In this document: positions 2,199-9,850 of the stretch, piece after piece
Numbering within the stretch: the first letter of the stretch is position 1
Layout of the letters: each line of letters opens with the position of its first letter
Virus record (IMG/VR): IMGVR_UViG_3300008107_001276
Coordinates: 1-23,111 of that record
Source: a virus
Direction: 5' to 3' (one strand)
Length of the DNA: 23,111 bases
The notes under the pieces: model-generated
Told to the model about the DNA's origin: nothing
Database searches by the model: none
What the model saw: the letters and a program-made list of their open reading frames with translations, nothing else
Position numbers and translations under genes: made by a program

Positions 2199-2596
2199 GA
2201 CCAGAAGAATACTACGAGTCACAAAACACACTAGACAACTACGAGGTAGACACAATGATTGCAGACAATGCATACGTACCAGAACAAACAGAACGTGTAG
2301 CGTCAAGTTACAACTATCTGTTTGAGAACAGAGAACTACTCAAAGCGTACATGAAAGGACTGATTGAGTTGTTTGATGTTGACCGTGACGGTGACGACTG
2401 GTGGGGTAGCCTGAGGCTCCCCAACGGTTCGTATGCCGACATCAACATCTACACCTATGAGATTGGCATGGGTGAAGCAGAAGAACTATTGTGCGCCACA
2501 GCATACCCTGTGGACGCACATGGTAACGTCATGACAGGTTATGGCATGACACTACAAACACGATGGCTGACCAGCCTGAACGGAGAAACAAAATGA
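2195..2596 (+). CDS. Hypothetical acidic protein, 133 aa
   Basis: An unrecognised, strongly acidic 133-residue protein in the coupled small-gene string, starting in an ATGA overlap preceded by GGGGAAG. The N-terminal 45 residues are Glu/Asp/Asn/Tyr rich and probably extended; residues about 45-65 look helical. After that comes FDVDRDGDDWW. The D-x-D-x-D-G order resembles the start of an EF-hand calcium loop, but the usual acidic twelfth position is a Ser here, so I do not call calcium binding. The last third looks like small beta strands. It ends in an ATGA overlap with the next gene. Confidence 0.75.
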   Translation: MRPEEYYESQNTLDNYEVDTMIADNAYVPEQTERVASSYNYLFENRELLKAYMKGLIELFDVDRDGDDWWGSLRLPNGSYADINIYTYEIGMGEAEELLCATAYPVDAHGNVMTGYGMTLQTRWLTSLNGETK

Positions 2597-2820
2597 AAAT
2601 CAAAGACATGATTCGACACCTCAGCGAACTCAACCCAGAAGATGAAATCTGTGTTGTGTGGTGGGAACGTCCCGAACGTGAAGCCATCGGCGGTGACCTG
2701 TGCGTTGACGATTGGGGGCGTATCTGTCAAGAGTTTGACGACTACATCGCTTTTGATGGGTCTGACCTCAACGACTGGATGGAACAAGCAATCATCGACT
2801 ACATGAAAGCAAGCGAGTGA
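2593..2820 (+). CDS. Hypothetical small phage protein, 75 aa
   Basis: I choose the ATG at 2593, which overlaps the upstream TGA (ATGA) and follows ACGGAGAAAC, over an in-frame ATG at 2563 deep inside the previous gene. The start MKIKDMIRHLSELNPEDEI is a pattern I have seen at the N-terminus of many short phage proteins of unknown function: a helix, then Leu-x-x-Leu-x-Pro-x-x-x-Ile, then a beta strand (CVVWWE). The C-terminal half is acidic with a final helix. No active site is visible. Its last base is the first base of the next start codon (TGATG). Confidence 0.75.
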   Translation: MKIKDMIRHLSELNPEDEICVVWWERPEREAIGGDLCVDDWGRICQEFDDYIAFDGSDLNDWMEQAIIDYMKASE

Positions 2821-2942
2821 TGAAGCAGAGATGGAAGTGCCCAAAATGCCCACGACAAATTATAACACTCGTTCCCTTGACAGCACCCCCCGTATGTGGG
2901 GCGCATGCCAAGCCCATAGAAATGGAGCGTTCCCCGAAATGA
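2820..2942 (+). CDS. Tiny zinc-ribbon protein, 40 aa
   Basis: A 40-residue gene whose ATG overlaps the preceding TGA (TGATG), with AGCGAG nearby as a weak ribosome-binding site. It carries two metal-binding knuckles: W-K-C-P-K-C (residues 5-10) and P-P-V-C-G-A-H (23-29). These are separated by an Ile/Leu/Val segment (14-20) and the T-A-P-P turn (21-24). From family knowledge, single zinc-ribbon proteins of this style (W-x-C-P-x-C ... A-P-P-x-C) recur in actinobacteriophages without known function, and may bind nucleic acid or protein. A longer open frame at 2831-3079 overlaps it but lacks coupling and has a random-looking composition, so I prefer this one. Confidence 0.72.
   Translation: MKQRWKCPKCPRQIITLVPLTAPPVCGAHAKPIEMERSPK
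2884..2904 (+). other. GC-rich imperfect hairpin inside the zinc-ribbon gene
   Basis: GCxCCCC (from 2884) can pair with GGGGxGC (to 2904), with one mismatch and an 8-nt loop. It contains a C6 run at 2886-2891. The C-run could alternatively pair with any of the G5 runs 80 nt downstream, competing with quadruplex formation. It may be coincidental, because it lies inside coding sequence. Confidence 0.3.
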
Positions 2943-2969
2943 CAGGACGCATGATAACCTTCCACCAAC

Positions 2970-2997
2970 GGGGGAGGGGGACAACAGGGGGTGGGGG
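2970..2997 (+). promoter_or_regulatory. Potential G-quadruplex: four runs of five G
   Basis: The sequence is G5-A-G5-ACAACA-G5-T-G5, meeting the usual definition of an intramolecular quadruplex with very short loops (1, 6, 1). Such a run pattern is far from expected in DNA of this composition. It is on the sense strand of the transcript leading into the replication genes, so both DNA and RNA quadruplexes are possible. The complementary strand would be a C-rich i-motif-like tract. The motif is seen directly; the role is inferred. Confidence 0.7.
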
Positions 2998-3004
2998 CAC
3001 AAGA

Positions 3005-3040
3005 CCGTTTGTGTCGCCACCCAGAGGTGGCGCACAACGG
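3005..3040 (+). promoter_or_regulatory. Strong bulged hairpin, no T-tract
   Basis: CGCCACC (3015-3021) pairs perfectly with GGTGGCG (3026-3032) around a CAGA tetraloop. The stem then continues outward as CCG-TTGTG against CACAACGG with two single-T bulges on the left arm, about 15 base pairs in all. No U-run follows, so it is not a classic intrinsic terminator. With the adjacent G tract it may form an RNA regulatory leader or a DNA site. Confidence 0.6.
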
Positions 3041-3081
3041 TTGCTACCAAGTACGGCTACCACAAAAAGGAGTAACTAGGT

Positions 3082-3558
3082 ATGGTTGCAAGTCCTAAAG
3101 GTTGTGGTATCAGAGAACATGACGAGACCTGTCTCTGTGATGTGGTTGTCAAAACTCCAACACCGATTAGGTGTCGGATACCTGACGACCTCGAACACGG
3201 CAAGTACATTGCCGAACTCATCAACTGGGATTACAAAGACTTGTCTGTGTTCTTTGAGGCGTACACGAAAGGCATGGACGCTATACGCAAAGCGTATGAG
3301 CGTGGCATGACACCTGATGAGGCTGCAGGCAAAATCAGGGGTCGTCGTAAACGGAAAAGCAATTACAGTCATTTCGTTCCCAAGTTTCTCACATGGGACG
3401 TGTATAATTACATACGTGAACGAGTTGTCGCTGGTTGTGGACCGTCCGCCCTTGTGCGTGAGGTTCAGGAACAGTTCAACGTGACCATTCATAAATCTTA
3501 TGTCACCAAGACAAAGAACAGAATGATTGAACGTGGAGAAATGGAAAGACCAGTATGA
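3082..3558 (+). CDS. Hypothetical basic protein, possible C-terminal HTH, 158 aa
   Basis: First gene of the replication/recombination block, with AAGGAG nine bases upstream. An early Cys-rich segment (residues 8, 17, 19 and 31) is followed by a helical region (about 43-72) and a very basic patch, K-I-R-G-R-R-K-R-K (83-91). Residues about 103-155 look like a small helical domain, with helix, turn, helix and a basic third helix (SYVTKTKNRMIERGEME), which could be a winged-helix or homeodomain-like DNA binder. I do not recognise the family. Basic charge and its place directly ahead of a nuclease, helicase and primase suggest nucleic-acid binding. It ends in an ATGA overlap with the nuclease. Confidence 0.75.
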   Translation: MVASPKGCGIREHDETCLCDVVVKTPTPIRCRIPDDLEHGKYIAELINWDYKDLSVFFEAYTKGMDAIRKAYERGMTPDEAAGKIRGRRKRKSNYSHFVPKFLTWDVYNYIRERVVAGCGPSALVREVQEQFNVTIHKSYVTKTKNRMIERGEMERPV

Positions 3559-4391
3559 AGATAGAAACAGTTGACGGAATCAAAAAGATTTGGGTTAGGC
3601 AGTCTTGGCTGAATGACCTGATGATTTGCCCCGAACGTGCTCGTTTAGGTATTCAGATGCCAGAGTGGCGACAGAGTTCCGACGCCACACACATAGGAAC
3701 CTCGGTTCACTCTGGCATCGAACACATCCTTACACATCACGACGACAAGGGTGGTGTCAATGTGGCAATGGAAACATTGCGTACACTCATTGATACTGAA
3801 CCTTTCAGAATGAACTCAACCTCATCCGTTGATGAGATGGAGTTCCATGTGGCGAACATGATGGCAACATTCGTTATAGAGATTCTTCCTCTTGTGGAAG
3901 CCGGTGGGTCAGCAGAGAAAACCTTTGCTACCAAACTTGCTGACGTTGAGGAGAATGTCGAACTGTGGCTGTCGGGAACCATTGACTACATCGAACCTAA
4001 CGGTACGTTGTGGGATTGGAAAACTGCAGCAAGAAAGTATTCGCAGGGTGAAAAGCAACGACAATCCATTCAAGCGTCAGCGTACGCTTGTGCTGCTGTG
4101 CAGTGTGGTTGGGTTGCTGATTACCCCATCCGCTTCAACTACGGGGTCATGACCCGTGCGAAGAAAAGCGTCGGGCAAGTTGTGCCTGTCGTGCGAACAA
4201 AACAACACGTTGATTGGCTGATTCATCAGGCATCAAACGCTGTGCGTTCGCTCTCCGCTATCGGTCTTGATAATCCGTGGATGGCAAACGACCAGCATGG
4301 ACTCTGCTCAGAGAAGTGGTGCCCGTACTGGTCAATCTGTAAGGGGTCACGTATCAGTGACCAAGACAACAAACTAGAGGAGACACTCTAA
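3555..4391 (+). CDS. RecB/Cas4-like PD-(D/E)XK exonuclease with predicted Fe-S cluster
   Basis: A predicted single-strand-directed DNA exonuclease of the RecB/Cas4 group (family knowledge). Core motifs are visible in order: G-T-S-V-H (48-52), whose His is typical of this group; G-T-I-D-Y (141-145), with the metal-binding Asp144; D-W-K-T (154-157), the D-x-K pair; and Q-A-S-A-Y (173-177), the Q-x-x-x-Y motif. Cys25 together with Cys251, Cys256 and Cys262 matches the split one-plus-three cysteine layout that holds a 4Fe-4S cluster in Cas4 and AddB. Length, 278 residues, is normal. It overlaps both neighbours by 1-4 nt and sits just upstream of the helicase, so it probably processes ends in phage replication or recombination. 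It is not linked to any CRISPR array here. Confidence 0.87.
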   Translation: MKIETVDGIKKIWVRQSWLNDLMICPERARLGIQMPEWRQSSDATHIGTSVHSGIEHILTHHDDKGGVNVAMETLRTLIDTEPFRMNSTSSVDEMEFHVANMMATFVIEILPLVEAGGSAEKTFATKLADVEENVELWLSGTIDYIEPNGTLWDWKTAARKYSQGEKQRQSIQASAYACAAVQCGWVADYPIRFNYGVMTRAKKSVGQVVPVVRTKQHVDWLIHQASNAVRSLSAIGLDNPWMANDQHGLCSEKWCPYWSICKGSRISDQDNKLEETL

Positions 4392-4780
4392 TGGCTATGG
4401 ACAAAGACCAGAGCATTATTACCCAAGTTGCTGCAAAGATTGCAAGCGACCTCACCATCCACAACGCAAACTTTGCTGACTTCCTCATGCACCTCACTGC
4501 AGTCAAGGAAGCACTGTTTGAGGAAATCTACGGGACAACAACACCCGAAGAAAAGATTGTCAAGCAGACATTCCCCACAGCAACTGAACAGGACTTCACT
4601 GTTCGTGTCAAAGGTGAACAGCACGGTCCTCTTCCTACATGGTTGATTGAGGCATGTAAGCGTGATGGCATTACTGAAGTCTACGACAACCGTGATGGTT
4701 TGTCGGTCAATCCAAAGCGTCCATGGTTCAAAGCCGTGAACGACAAGGAGAAGGCTTACTGGCAACCTAAAGGAGCCTAA
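4391..4780 (+). CDS. Hypothetical protein between nuclease and helicase, 129 aa
   Basis: The start is set by a TAATG overlap and a GAGGAG ribosome-binding site. The N-terminal half (about residues 5-58) appears helical. The C-terminal half has a conserved-looking core, GPLPTWLIEACKRDGITEVY, followed by N-P-K-R-P-W-F-K and a terminal Tyr-Trp-Gln-Pro. This Trp/Lys-rich C-terminus and its place between nuclease and helicase would suit a replication accessory such as a single-strand binder or helicase loader. I see no OB-fold signature that proves it, so function is left open. Confidence 0.75.
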   Translation: MAMDKDQSIITQVAAKIASDLTIHNANFADFLMHLTAVKEALFEEIYGTTTPEEKIVKQTFPTATEQDFTVRVKGEQHGPLPTWLIEACKRDGITEVYDNRDGLSVNPKRPWFKAVNDKEKAYWQPKGA

Positions 4781-5826
4781 TGAGACTCTCGCTTGAACAA
4801 ATTCAGGCGGGTTGGGAAAGCGTAGGGGCGGATACGGAAGTGTCCGCCTCTATTGCTCCCCACGAATACCGCCACTATGTTCCACTATCAGACGCTGCAC
4901 AATCATTTGTGCGGTGGGCACAGAACCCCAACGAACGTATCTACACAGGTGTTGAACCAATCGACGCAGAAATGCGTGGTATCGCCCCCGGTGAGATGGC
5001 AATGATGTTGGGATACAGCCACGGCGGTAAAACGCTAGTGCTGCTACACATGCTGATGAACAACCGTGACAAACGGGTAGCCCTGTTCATTCCCGATGAA
5101 CCCAAGACGTTAGTGCTCACGAAACTGACATGCATGTTCCACAATGTGGACGCACGCCTGTTGGAGCAACGTGTCGCAGATAACGACAGAGAAGCCATCG
5201 ACCTGTTACGTATGACAGCAGAAGAAAACTTTCCCAATCTAGCAGTTTTCGACCAACCACTTCTGCCATCAGACATGGAACGGGCGTATGCCGAAGTCAG
5301 TGACGTATGGGGAGACAAACCAGAACTAGTCGTTGTTGACTACCTCGAACTTGTGGAAGCAGGAGAGCAAGTACCTGACAAGGCTGGATACCTGAAAGGT
5401 TTCGGACGTAGGCATGACGTGCCGTTGATGGTTCTCCATCAAACGTCACGCACATCAGGAGCAGACGGACGTAAACTAACCATCTCGTCAGGTGCATACG
5501 GCGGTGAACAGCAAGCCACATCAATCATTGGTGTACGACGCAAGAAGTACGAAATCATGTCAGAACTGCAAGACATCCACGAATCGTTATCCCGCAAACA
5601 CAACGAACGAATGCTAGAACGATACGAACAACTGCAGTACGACAAACGAATCCACGAGTACACACTCACCCTGTCATTGTTGAAAAACAAACGACCGGGT
5701 GGAATGCTCGTTGACGACATCGACTTCGAGTTAGACGTACACACTGGCAGGCTCTGGGAACTACGCTCAGGTGAACTACCAGACCAGTACCTTAGGAATG
5801 TTTCATGGAACGAGAACAAGTCATAG
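4780..5826 (+). CDS. DnaB/RecA-type replicative helicase (SF4), short form
   Basis: A RecA-fold ATPase resembling the C-terminal half of DnaB-type helicases. Walker A is G-Y-S-H-G-G-K-T (78-85). A catalytic Glu lies in I-P-D-E-P (104-108). Walker B is L-V-V-V-D-Y (183-188). V-L-H-Q-T-S-R (218-224) is the conserved Gln/Arg sensor motif, and S-G-A-Y-G-G (about 237-242) precedes the final strands. At 348 residues it lacks the full DnaB N-terminal domain; only about 50 residues precede the ATPase. A charged helical insert (about 265-300) is unusual and may mediate oligomer or primase contact. It starts in TAATG after AAAGGAG and overlaps the primase gene by 22 nt, so the two are probably translated together as the replisome core. 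Confidence 0.87.
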   Translation: MRLSLEQIQAGWESVGADTEVSASIAPHEYRHYVPLSDAAQSFVRWAQNPNERIYTGVEPIDAEMRGIAPGEMAMMLGYSHGGKTLVLLHMLMNNRDKRVALFIPDEPKTLVLTKLTCMFHNVDARLLEQRVADNDREAIDLLRMTAEENFPNLAVFDQPLLPSDMERAYAEVSDVWGDKPELVVVDYLELVEAGEQVPDKAGYLKGFGRRHDVPLMVLHQTSRTSGADGRKLTISSGAYGGEQQATSIIGVRRKKYEIMSELQDIHESLSRKHNERMLERYEQLQYDKRIHEYTLTLSLLKNKRPGGMLVDDIDFELDVHTGRLWELRSGELPDQYLRNVSWNENKS

Positions 5827-6722
5827 TAGACGGGTTCATTCAACTGTTCCGTGGACGAGGCGACGCTTACGGCTCATGGGATGGTGGATGTATCCGTGAA
5901 GAACTCACCCGTGAAACCTTCTACCACCACCTAACAGAAGGTCCCTACATTGGTGTGTATCCACTTGTTCCATTCCAAAAAGAATGGGGTTGCGTATGGG
6001 GATGCACAGACATCGACGTAGACGACCTTGACGCTGCACGTAATCTACAGATGGCGTTCTCAGTGAAGAACATCGTCGCATGGATTGAGAAAACCCGCAA
6101 GGGTTACCACGTGTGGGTGTTCACCGACAACCTAGTACCAGCTGCGACAATGCGACGAGCGTTCCTAGCAGCACACCAAGCAATCAACTACCCAGCCAAA
6201 GAAGTCAACCCCAAACAAGAATCAGCAGGTTCAGGGCTAGGCAACTACGTACGGCTACCGTACTACGGCGGACTGATTGCAATGCCAGAGAACAGGTTCA
6301 TCATCAATGAATCCAACAAGCCAATACCGCTTGAAACATTCATTGAACTAGCAACCCACACAATGGCAACACGTGAACAATTAGACAGCATCGCTTCTCT
6401 GTGGAAGCCACCAGAAATCAAACCGTTCATGAACGGCATAGAGGTTCCAATCAGCGTCCAGCACATCCTGTCAAGGCTTCAGTCCTTGCCGTATGTCATT
6501 TGGAGGGACGGACCATTCGATGGTCAGGACCGTTCCACTGCATTGTTCCGTTTATCACATATACTTAGAGAAACAGGAATTGAACCCAACGAAGCGTTCG
6601 CAGTTCTCAAATCTGCGGACGAACGATGGGGTAAATTCCATTTACGACATGACGGTGATAAGGAGTTGATTAAAATTGTTGAACGAACTTACAGCATTGC
6701 TTTCGTGGAACAGAATGATTAA
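5805..6722 (+). CDS. Archaeo-eukaryotic-type primase (TOTE-like PrimPol domain)
   Basis: A predicted primase of the AEP superfamily, close to the TOTE-system primase domain. Motif I is T-D-I-D-V-D (68-73), with D69 and D71 as metal ligands. R-K-G-Y-H-V-W (98-104) is the His-containing motif II. N-P-K-Q (135-138) and the following G-L-G-N-Y-V-R-L-P (144-152) are hallmark stretches of this subgroup. The C-terminal 110 residues are helical with an N-G-I-E-V-P-like linker and no helicase domain, so the separate helicase just upstream would supply unwinding. The start overlaps the helicase 3' end and follows TTAGGA. It probably makes primers for phage replication. The superfamily call is firm; polymerase activity beyond priming is untested. 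Confidence 0.85.
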   Translation: MEREQVIVDGFIQLFRGRGDAYGSWDGGCIREELTRETFYHHLTEGPYIGVYPLVPFQKEWGCVWGCTDIDVDDLDAARNLQMAFSVKNIVAWIEKTRKGYHVWVFTDNLVPAATMRRAFLAAHQAINYPAKEVNPKQESAGSGLGNYVRLPYYGGLIAMPENRFIINESNKPIPLETFIELATHTMATREQLDSIASLWKPPEIKPFMNGIEVPISVQHILSRLQSLPYVIWRDGPFDGQDRSTALFRLSHILRETGIEPNEAFAVLKSADERWGKFHLRHDGDKELIKIVERTYSIAFVEQND

Positions 6723-7124: not shown

Positions 7125-7585
7125 GTAAGAACTCTGACTGGGACATCGCAGGACGTAAATTCAACTTCATGAAAGACCTTCAGTTTGGTAAACGTGGAGA
7201 AAATCTAGTCAAGAACTTTCTCGGTTCACTAGATGATAGAGCATTCGAAGTGAAGACAGACCGCTACCGCAACGGTCGCATGGCTGTCGAAATACAACAA
7301 AACCCTAGACGAGAACTAGATGAAAGCGGTGAGCAGAAATGGAAACCATCAGGAGTGATGGTTACCAAAGCGCACTGGTGGGTCTATGTCTACACACTTG
7401 ATGGCGACCACGGGGCATTCGTGGTTGTATCAGTCAAGCGTCTCAAGAAATACATCAAGAAGAATAAGTCAAAGTTCCCATTGACTGACTTCGCAAAGAA
7501 TTCAGACAATCCAGCAAGAGGCTATGTTCTTCAACCTGAAGACGTAATGGACATGATGATTAACCCACAATATGACGAAGCGTAG
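7121..7585 (+). CDS. PD-(D/E)XK-like protein, possible nuclease
   Basis: A small basic protein with a restriction-endonuclease-like outline. G-K-R-G-E-N-L-V (23-30) is the helix with the first acidic residue (E27). F-E-V-K-T-D (42-47) gives the E-x-K pair (E43, K45), and M-A-V-E-I-Q (54-59) forms the next strand with E57. Together with W-W-V-Y-V-Y (86-91) this resembles phage proteins of the form E-V-K-T-D...V-E, predicted to be PD-(D/E)XK nucleases. The C-terminal half is Lys rich (107-118). It starts inside the resolvase stop (ATGA) and overlaps the next gene by 14 nt. It may be an endonuclease acting on host or replicating DNA; catalysis is inferred. Confidence 0.6.
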   Translation: MSKNSDWDIAGRKFNFMKDLQFGKRGENLVKNFLGSLDDRAFEVKTDRYRNGRMAVEIQQNPRRELDESGEQKWKPSGVMVTKAHWWVYVYTLDGDHGAFVVVSVKRLKKYIKKNKSKFPLTDFAKNSDNPARGYVLQPEDVMDMMINPQYDEA

Positions 7586-8396
7586 AGAAACACCATACGA
7601 ACAACTCATTAACATGAGAGCCAAGCCAACCTCATACGGGGATGGCAGGGTCAACTATGAAGCCATTATGATGGCTGAACCACACGAAGAAATAGAAGAC
7701 GAACAGTGGGACCGTCTTGAAATGAAAGAAATAGTTTCAGACTATCTACTGGAACTAGACCCACGTGAAACGTGGATTATCAACGCCATTATGAGTGAAA
7801 ACAAATCACTGCAACAAATAGCAGACGAACTTTCTTTCACTAAAACCCATGTGTGGAGACTAAGAAACCAAGCATTCGCTAAACTAAAAGCGCTAATGTC
7901 GCAAGACACCAAAATACGAAAGAAGATTCAAATGGCTTCCACATGGGAAGAATCCGCAACACAATGGATGATGGCAATCTCCGACACAGACGGTCAACGT
8001 CCGTCGTCAATCGCCTACATGGAGGACGTACTCGAATACATGCGCCAAGCTGTGCTAGCCGAAACAGAACCACGTTCAGATTCGTTTTTAATTCTAGCGA
8101 AGCGCACAGTTGCGCTCGCTCGTGAACTAGACGAATGGGACACAGGAGAGATGCTGTCGATGGTAATCGGCAAGCAACGAGACTACGGACATGGAAACAT
8201 TAACAGCTTTGGTCTCATCGGTATTGTAGTGCGTTTATCTGATAAAATTGAGCGATACAAAAACTTGATGTTAAAGAAAAGAGAACCCAGCCATGAGTCG
8301 CTGGTAGACACAATCCACGACATTGTTGGATACTGTCTTATCGCCCTCATGTTCCTTGATGGAACATTCCAGCTCAAACTAGGAGAAGAACAATGA
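7572..8396 (+). CDS. Fusion: sigma-70 region 4-like HTH plus Nmad1 (DUF1599)-like domain
   Basis: A two-domain protein. Residues about 50-110 look like sigma region 4: E-L-D-P-R-E-T-W-I-I-N (61-71), then S-L-Q-Q-I-A-D-E-L (79-87) and T-K-T-H-V-W-R-L-R-N-Q-A (90-101), a clear helix-turn-helix. No region 2 is present, so it is not a full sigma factor. After a linker, residues about 195-267 match the nucleotide-modification-associated domain 1 pattern: K-Q-R-D-Y-G-H-G-N-I (201-210), F-G-L-I-G-I-V-V-R (213-221), S-D-K-I-E-R (223-228), and D-T-I-H-D-I-V-G-Y (246-254) followed by A-L-M. The latter domain usually stands alone and has been linked to modified-base phages. It could join transcription switching with nucleotide metabolism. 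The domain calls are by eye. Confidence 0.75.
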   Translation: MTKRRETPYEQLINMRAKPTSYGDGRVNYEAIMMAEPHEEIEDEQWDRLEMKEIVSDYLLELDPRETWIINAIMSENKSLQQIADELSFTKTHVWRLRNQAFAKLKALMSQDTKIRKKIQMASTWEESATQWMMAISDTDGQRPSSIAYMEDVLEYMRQAVLAETEPRSDSFLILAKRTVALARELDEWDTGEMLSMVIGKQRDYGHGNINSFGLIGIVVRLSDKIERYKNLMLKKREPSHESLVDTIHDIVGYCLIALMFLDGTFQLKLGEEQ

Positions 8397-9001: not shown

Positions 9002-9230
9002 TGACATTGTGACCCGACTAAACACGGAAGACATGACAAAGGCGTATTACAAAGCGTTTCCTAAGGTCGTAACGCTTGAAGATGCTATGCGCCAAGCACT
9101 TGAATCGATTGCCGAGATTGAACGCCTACGGGCAGAACTGGAGTATGTTCGTGACATAGAACTAGGGGAATGTCGCTCAGAATATACAAAAATTAGCAAC
9201 AAGTACGACAGACTGTTAAAAGAACAATGA
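8994..9230 (+). CDS. Hypothetical coiled-coil small phage protein, 78 aa
   Basis: I start it at 8994, where MTDDIVTRL begins, not at an in-frame ATG at 8943 inside the previous gene. M-T-D-D-I-V-T-R-L followed by an A-x-x-E-I-E-R-L-R-A-E-L-E segment (about 39-53) is a design I know from many small actinophage proteins: a short head, a degenerate middle and a C-terminal coiled coil (about 32-75 here). Function is unknown. It overlaps the previous gene by 8 nt and the next by 4 nt (ATGA). Confidence 0.72.
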   Translation: MTDDIVTRLNTEDMTKAYYKAFPKVVTLEDAMRQALESIAEIERLRAELEYVRDIELGECRSEYTKISNKYDRLLKEQ

Positions 9231-9850
9231 CAACCATCGTTGCAATCCAAGGCTCTAACTACGCAGCAATCGGTACCGACTCACGCATCTCATCATTCGA
9301 TGAGGGCGGGATGGCGTACCAAATCACAACACTAGGTGCGGGTTCATCCAAGATAGCGTTCAACGGTAAATACATTCTTGGTGCAGCAGGAGATGTGAGA
9401 GCCATCAACATTCTCCACCATTCATTCACACCACCAGTTCCATCACCGGCTACCAAAGGAAAGAAACTCGATGCATTCATTACAAATAAATTTATCCCTG
9501 CCCTGCGAGAATGTTTCGAACTGCAAGGATACGCCATGCCCGAACGAGATTCTTCTGAACACCTTGCAGAACATGGTTCAACCATACTTGTCGCAATACA
9601 TGGCACAATCTATGTTATTGAAGGCGACTACAGTTGGACTTCCGACTCCACCGGCATCTACGCACTAGGTACAGGCGCACCGTACGCAGGAACGTTAAGG
9701 ATTGTTGGCTTCGTCAATCATTGCCTGCATTTCATCTTTTATATCGCTAGGAAGATTTTCCCACCAGTCCTTGTAACTTTCTGCTCTTGCTTTAATCCAT
9801 TTTTTATTTTGACGAGCAGCACCTGGTTGTTTTTTATTAATCTCCGTTAA
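9227..9850 (+). CDS. Proteasome/HslV-like Ntn hydrolase, 3'-truncated
   Basis: Residues 1-154 look like a phage-encoded proteasome beta/HslV-like protease. Thr2-Thr3 lie at the N-terminus (Thr nucleophile after Met removal), G-T-D-S-R (16-20) carries the Asp equivalent to Asp17, Lys42 may be the base, and there are L-G-A-A-G-D-V-R (51-58), E-G-D-Y-S-W (132-137) and I-Y-A-L-G-T-G (144-150). Relatives I know continue for about 40-50 residues with a helical end. Here the frame after about 9688 instead runs through the antisense of the neighbouring - strand gene, giving an atypical Cys/Phe-rich tail to the stop at 9848-9850. The gene therefore appears cut at the strand switch, and the protein may be inactive or use a non-native tail. 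The intact form would degrade or process proteins in the cytoplasm. The start is coupled to the gene above (ATGA). Confidence 0.75.
   Translation: MTTIVAIQGSNYAAIGTDSRISSFDEGGMAYQITTLGAGSSKIAFNGKYILGAAGDVRAINILHHSFTPPVPSPATKGKKLDAFITNKFIPALRECFELQGYAMPERDSSEHLAEHGSTILVAIHGTIYVIEGDYSWTSDSTGIYALGTGAPYAGTLRIVGFVNHCLHFIFYIARKIFPPVLVTFCSCFNPFFILTSSTWLFFINLR

Follow-up and report, generated by a model that had tools for sequence, protein, structure and literature searches.

What does a G-rich, hairpin-bearing gap do in front of a set of phage replication genes? The gap, 139 nt long (positions 2943–3081), lies in a 23.1-kb IMG/VR virus record that was analysed over its whole length and is called the window here. 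To our knowledge, replication origins are unknown for nearly all environmental phages, and quadruplex-assisted replication has hitherto been discussed mainly for mitochondria and eukaryotes.

Structure and setting of the element

The gap separates a 40-aa zinc-finger-like gene (2820–2942; CPKC...C..H in translation), which ends where the element begins, from the gene for a 158-aa protein, whose start codon is the ATG at 3082; all features given for this locus are on the plus strand. It contains, in order, the G-quadruplex motif GGGGGAGGGGGACAACAGGGGGTGGGGG (2970–2997), a 5-base linker, a 17-bp hairpin (3003–3042) and AAGGAG. The four G5 runs (2970–2974, 2976–2980, 2987–2991 and 2993–2997) are separated by the loops A, ACAACA and T, exactly the 1/6/1 arrangement of the original prediction, and the pattern G5-N-G5-N6-G5-N-G5 has a single match in the window, whereas 100 dinucleotide shuffles contained no instance of it. 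These runs are predicted to be able to form a five-tetrad quadruplex. The hairpin region has a folding z-score of −3.2; the CAGA loop and the bulges (two single U, 3010 and 3014) are as first described, whereas the stem has 17 bp rather than roughly 15 and the linker to the quadruplex is 5 nt, not 7. The expected ribosome-binding site lies 3′ of the hairpin (AAGGAG, 3067–3072) and is followed by the ATG at 3082. Folding with the quadruplex model of ViennaRNA, one of the checks proposed at the outset, favoured the quadruplex plus hairpin (−77.7 kcal/mol, versus −34.1 kcal/mol without quadruplexes).

Upstream of the first G run, at a distance of 9 nt, is an extended −10-like box (2952–2960; TG at 2952–2953 and TAACCT at 2955–2960), and a TTGACA-like box, ATGACA (2939–2944), stands 10 nt 5′ of this TANNNT box. 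A sigma-70 consensus scan gave no match at the element, where the boxes do not have the 16–18-nt spacing. With Rfam covariance models, 2400–3700 gave no match at E values up to 5, and the window as a whole gave none above the gathering score; a search for intrinsic terminators or attenuators (a GC hairpin plus a T run) found no terminator-like site. An 82-aa open reading frame at 2831–3079 would make the gap coding; it was rejected, being in another frame and crossing the quadruplex and hairpin, where relatives keep structure, so that the gap holds up as noncoding.

The 158-aa product, which we call the CLCDV protein (3082–3558), has an invariant Cys/His N-terminus in alignments and a helical, HTH-like C-terminus in an AlphaFold model (helices at residues 105–151, pLDDT about 82–88), with no Pfam match and no confident PDB match, fold search included. 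It is followed by a PD-(D/E)XK nuclease (3555–4391; Pfam PF12705, E=2e-14), a 129-aa protein that is conserved within the block (4391–4780), a DnaB-like helicase (4780–5826; phrog_19, E=3e-21) and an archaeo-eukaryotic-type (AEP) primase (5805–6722; PF22548, E=4e-15).

Conservation before the same genes

A scan with the first 22 nt of the motif recovered two further phages with the same 28-mer at the same place, and looser scans yielded about 20 more loci. Across about 20 leaders of phages that share the gene block the 28-mer is nearly invariant, G5-A-G5-ACWACA-G5-T-G5: in the 20 core leaders the first loop is A, the second ACTACA (14), ACAACA (5) or ACCCTA (1), and the third T, with A in one case. 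The adjacent CLCDV proteins share 23–40% identity with that of the window, and a 28-mer kept nearly identical beside a protein that has diverged this far indicates that the element is under selection. The hairpin varies in sequence, and its five loop-closing pairs are paired in all 14 distinct relatives with 2–5 pair types each (for L201 the script took a smaller neighbouring hairpin); judged from these sequences, pairing is maintained through compensatory changes. All 20 core leaders also have a TANNNT box 4–15 nt 5′ of the G runs and a TTGACA-like box 9–10 or 19–21 nt further 5′, that is, one or two helical turns. If these boxes are a promoter, the G tracts of the window group lie 3′ of it on the non-template strand; the boxes are unlike a standard sigma-70 promoter.

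In six relatives (L033:4746–5204, L055, L133, L125, L128 and L138) the first possible CLCDV ATG lies inside the hairpin and has no obvious ribosome-binding site; this codon or a later one may be the translation start.

The original prediction also proposed a two-state switch, in which an upstream C6 run would pair with the G runs and compete with the quadruplex. The run exists (2886–2891), and in the window the last G runs can alternatively pair with the 5′ arm of the hairpin. However, the C6 run is coding (APP codons) within the 40-aa zinc-finger-like gene, homologues of which occupy the equivalent place in L003, L068, L131, L148 and L152; no comparable C run is found there in the two relatives inspected (L002 and L003); and pairing of the G runs with the hairpin arm is not general among relatives. 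We consider such a switch very improbable.

For an unbiased sample, 80 relatives were collected by a helicase-profile search. Where a CLCDV gene is present and the upstream sequence is long enough, nearly all have the four-run element, and L184–L187 have the form G6-AACCAACGGA-G6. Distant relatives that lack CLCDV have G7–10 runs around AAA, G6-AACCTACGGA-G6, or spaced G6 runs; these two-run versions (G6–G10) lie just 3′ of a −10-like box and 5′ of a hairpin. As this layout is kept across the sample, distant relatives included, G tracts followed by a hairpin are the usual feature of the locus. The element is conserved before the same genes in many relatives, and the counterexamples that the original prediction named as speaking against it—the same genes with no G runs or hairpin—were found only in part: L229 retains just one G5 run, while in L256 the hairpin and the promoter-like boxes are present but no G run is.

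DNA searches of INPHARED returned no match, and primase and nuclease queries found remote relatives only, one of which (MW202803) has a CLCDV-like protein without a quadruplex. A scan of genome contigs gave scattered G-rich matches only, with no phage-like context. An enrichment of contig ends at the element, considered as a sign of polymerase stalling, looked weak on inspection and was dropped.

A related motif in unrelated phages

At least 120 IMG/VR stretches, which represent about 110 distinct contexts and come mostly from unrelated phages, contain the pattern GGGGGGACTATAGGGGGG; by our own estimate about one occurrence would be expected in random sequence of that size. Scanning IMG/VR for G7-N6-G7 with the loop unspecified gave 96 loops among the matches listed, about 67 of which fit the consensus AYNAYA; ACTATA (27), ATTATA (23), ATTACA (6) and ATCATA (4) were followed by the rarer ACTACA, ATGATA and ATAATA (two each) and ACAACA (one). 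When spacing was left free, spacers of 2–6 nt were preferred (76 of 120 among the matches listed). G7-N6-G7 can be read as GGG-G-GGG-N6-GGG-G-GGG, giving 1/6/1 loops and the same geometry as the window element. Among 37 unrelated records, 32 contain GGGGGAYNAYAGGGGG, each in exactly one copy (most of the other five had been picked for other loops), and none contains a reversed control pattern. Remote homologues of the initiators occur in eight regions of named phages, none of which contains the motif, so it is not general to initiator genes. Searches of an open-access library on the sequence and on phage quadruplex origins turned up no description of the motif; with that coverage, its novelty is provisional.

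Seven of the first ten motif-containing ORFs scanned encode replication-initiation, O-like or DnaD-like loader proteins and three had no match, counts that describe a selection, as ORFs for the context scans were chosen by hand. Later scans placed further motif loci in or beside genes for another initiator, a primase, and DnaB-like and other helicases; they also turned up terminases, one integrase, one methyltransferase and a number of ORFs with no match. The 3′ flank of the G strand stands out across 94 distinct unrelated loci: its first 100 nt are AT-rich (GC 0.444 against 0.505; p=3e-8), and hairpins are overrepresented in the next 80 nt (z<−2 in 44%, against 16%; p=6e-4). The 5′ flank shows neither bias. 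Some flanks appear iteron-like by eye. In 16 of 23 unrelated genomes, against about 9 expected, an extremum of cumulative GC skew lies within 10% of the genome from the motif. No promoter enrichment was found at the unrelated loci, so coupling to transcription is not general.

The single copy, the location in initiator genes, the AT-rich flank and the skew together point to replication initiation, and the wider motif family has the general features of phage origins (a unique site with an AT-rich flank, often inside initiation genes or adjoining them). We therefore read the window element, at close to an even chance, as a quadruplex-based cis-acting replication-initiation element that may act through a transcription-coupled R-loop. 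Opening of the region, whether by an initiator or by transcription from a start a few nucleotides 5′ of it, would let the G strand lock into a quadruplex, by itself or together with nascent G-rich RNA. The C strand would be left single-stranded, as an R-loop or open bubble on which the helicase and primase encoded just downstream could load and prime; the role of the hairpin would be to mark or protect the junction. For the family as a whole, we suggest with rather more reserve that a so far undescribed, widespread quadruplex signal (G run–AYNAYA–G run, 1/6/1) marks the replication start in unrelated phages; being read as structure, it would work across differing hosts and initiators, and the window would carry its most elaborate, five-tetrad form. 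Should the motif mark origins, candidate origins could be found in many uncultivated phages with a pattern of 16–28 nt, and a bacterial-virus system would be at hand for the study of quadruplex-assisted replication. Against an origin, several unrelated loci adjoin terminase, integrase or methyltransferase genes and not replication genes.

Two kinds of known origin offer comparison. At the mitochondrial H-strand origin, R-loops anchored by the hybrid quadruplex of CSBII prime replication (PMC6317783). There, G-rich non-template tracts with quadruplex potential lie shortly 3′ of a promoter, with replication initiation adjoining, and the window group would resemble this if its conserved boxes are a promoter; the phage motif differs in its fixed 1/6/1 geometry, its AYNAYA loop and the hairpin that follows, and transcription coupling, R-loop and priming are proposed for it. 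Like a lambda-type origin within an initiator gene, the motif occurs in O-like and DnaD-like genes with an AT-rich flank and, in some flanks, apparent short repeats; unlike it, the motif is defined by a G-quadruplex, and the window group has its element outside any initiator gene. The Neisseria pilE quadruplex with its cis-acting sRNA (PMC3547852) is likewise a conserved quadruplex beside promoter-like sequence, but it acts in recombination, and the phage has no silent-copy system.

A second copy and the competing readings

Unlike the single-copy wider family, the window's own group has two copies per genome. A whole-record search found further G pairs in 40 of 40 relatives searched, and in all ten full-length relatives one more G element heads the first rightward operon, 7–9 kb upstream of the first element and on the same strand. 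It is typically G7-ACTATA-G7, sometimes four-run (for example, G6-AA-GGG-TA-GGG-AT-G6), and again has a 3′ hairpin; in G008 it lies in a divergent region adjoining the terminase genes. In L120, L146 and L150, which form a related group, the terminase-side site is occupied by a window-type 28-mer with the loop ATTATA, and the forms therefore look interchangeable. The second element is at the GC-skew minimum in five of seven genomes, a point that is also that of divergent transcription. The GC-skew check suggested by the original prediction gave a mixed picture: proximity to an extremum in most of the unrelated genomes and at this second element, but none at the window-type copy in any of six full-length relatives. 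With the element at the heads of both rightward operons, each copy could be an initiation site, or one could now be mainly a leader.

Two operon-head copies per genome also suit a leader role: transcription would start just 5′ of the element, and the mRNA of the replication operon would begin with a highly stable quadruplex and hairpin that protect the message, control translation or modify RNA polymerase. The element of most core relatives has promoter-like boxes on its 5′ side and a ribosome-binding site on its 3′ side, L002 has terminator-like sequence directly 5′ of it, the second copy has its G strand as sense strand, and compensatory changes keep the hairpin paired. The put RNA of phage HK022, which modifies RNA polymerase, likewise comprises structured elements that head the early operons, two in each genome; however, it is made of paired stem-loops and has no quadruplex, and a sense-strand leader misfits the unrelated motif loci. 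There the motif is often antisense inside initiator genes or between convergent genes, which fits no leader model. Moreover, the promoter boxes are 9–10 or 19–21 nt apart, not 17, and the hairpins show no sense-strand G-U preference, although G-U versus A-C asymmetry is uninformative on RNA-level selection. We regard a leader as rather unlikely, though it is the main competitor; a five-tetrad quadruplex conserved so strongly would be unusual in that role, too.

Alternatively, the element could be a protein-binding or packaging site that is read as DNA sequence, bound for example by the CLCDV protein or acting near terminase genes. Single-nucleotide loops and AYNAYA are conserved more than a quadruplex requires, the boxes are phased at one or two helical turns, and genes for the terminase large subunit often lie nearby (17 of 61 proteins, in part a single clade). 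However, the terminase-side forms alternate among G7-ACTATA-G7, G5-A-G5-ATTATA-G5-T-G5, G6-AA-GGG-TA-GGG-AT-G6 and G7-A-GGG-TA-GGG-A-G7, which share quadruplex potential and not sequence; this argues against a sequence-read site and for structure as the selected feature. Packaging also leaves the placement inside initiator genes unexplained, and we judge this explanation improbable. The original prediction of an origin, a priming site or a leader is borne out for the placement before the replication genes, to which the association of the motif with initiators can be added; as to the role, replication initiation, the reading that we prefer, has partial support.

Several further features accompany these operons. 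The sequence upstream of the terminase-side element of relatives (for example, L276, around local position 1630) resembles a regulator site, with its conserved GTAAC/GTTAC box and TGAGAAT-ATTCTCA palindrome. A possible third G pair, GGGGGGGCGTACACCGAGGGGGG, follows the second element by about 0.8 kb (G002, about 556; G008, about 22401). Two hammerhead-like sequences precede small early genes in the G008 early operon (L276:3050–3800), one of which is a match to Rfam Hammerhead_II that stays under the gathering score (E=7e-4); self-cleavage of phage early transcripts is possible. In the window, a protein encoded at 7572–8396 combines a sigma-70 region-4-like domain with a DUF1599 nucleotide-modification domain and may serve the phage as a sigma factor at the terminase-side promoter, and the rightward block also encodes a class-II glutamine amidotransferase-like protein (126–1055) and an HslV-peptidase-like protein (9227–9850).
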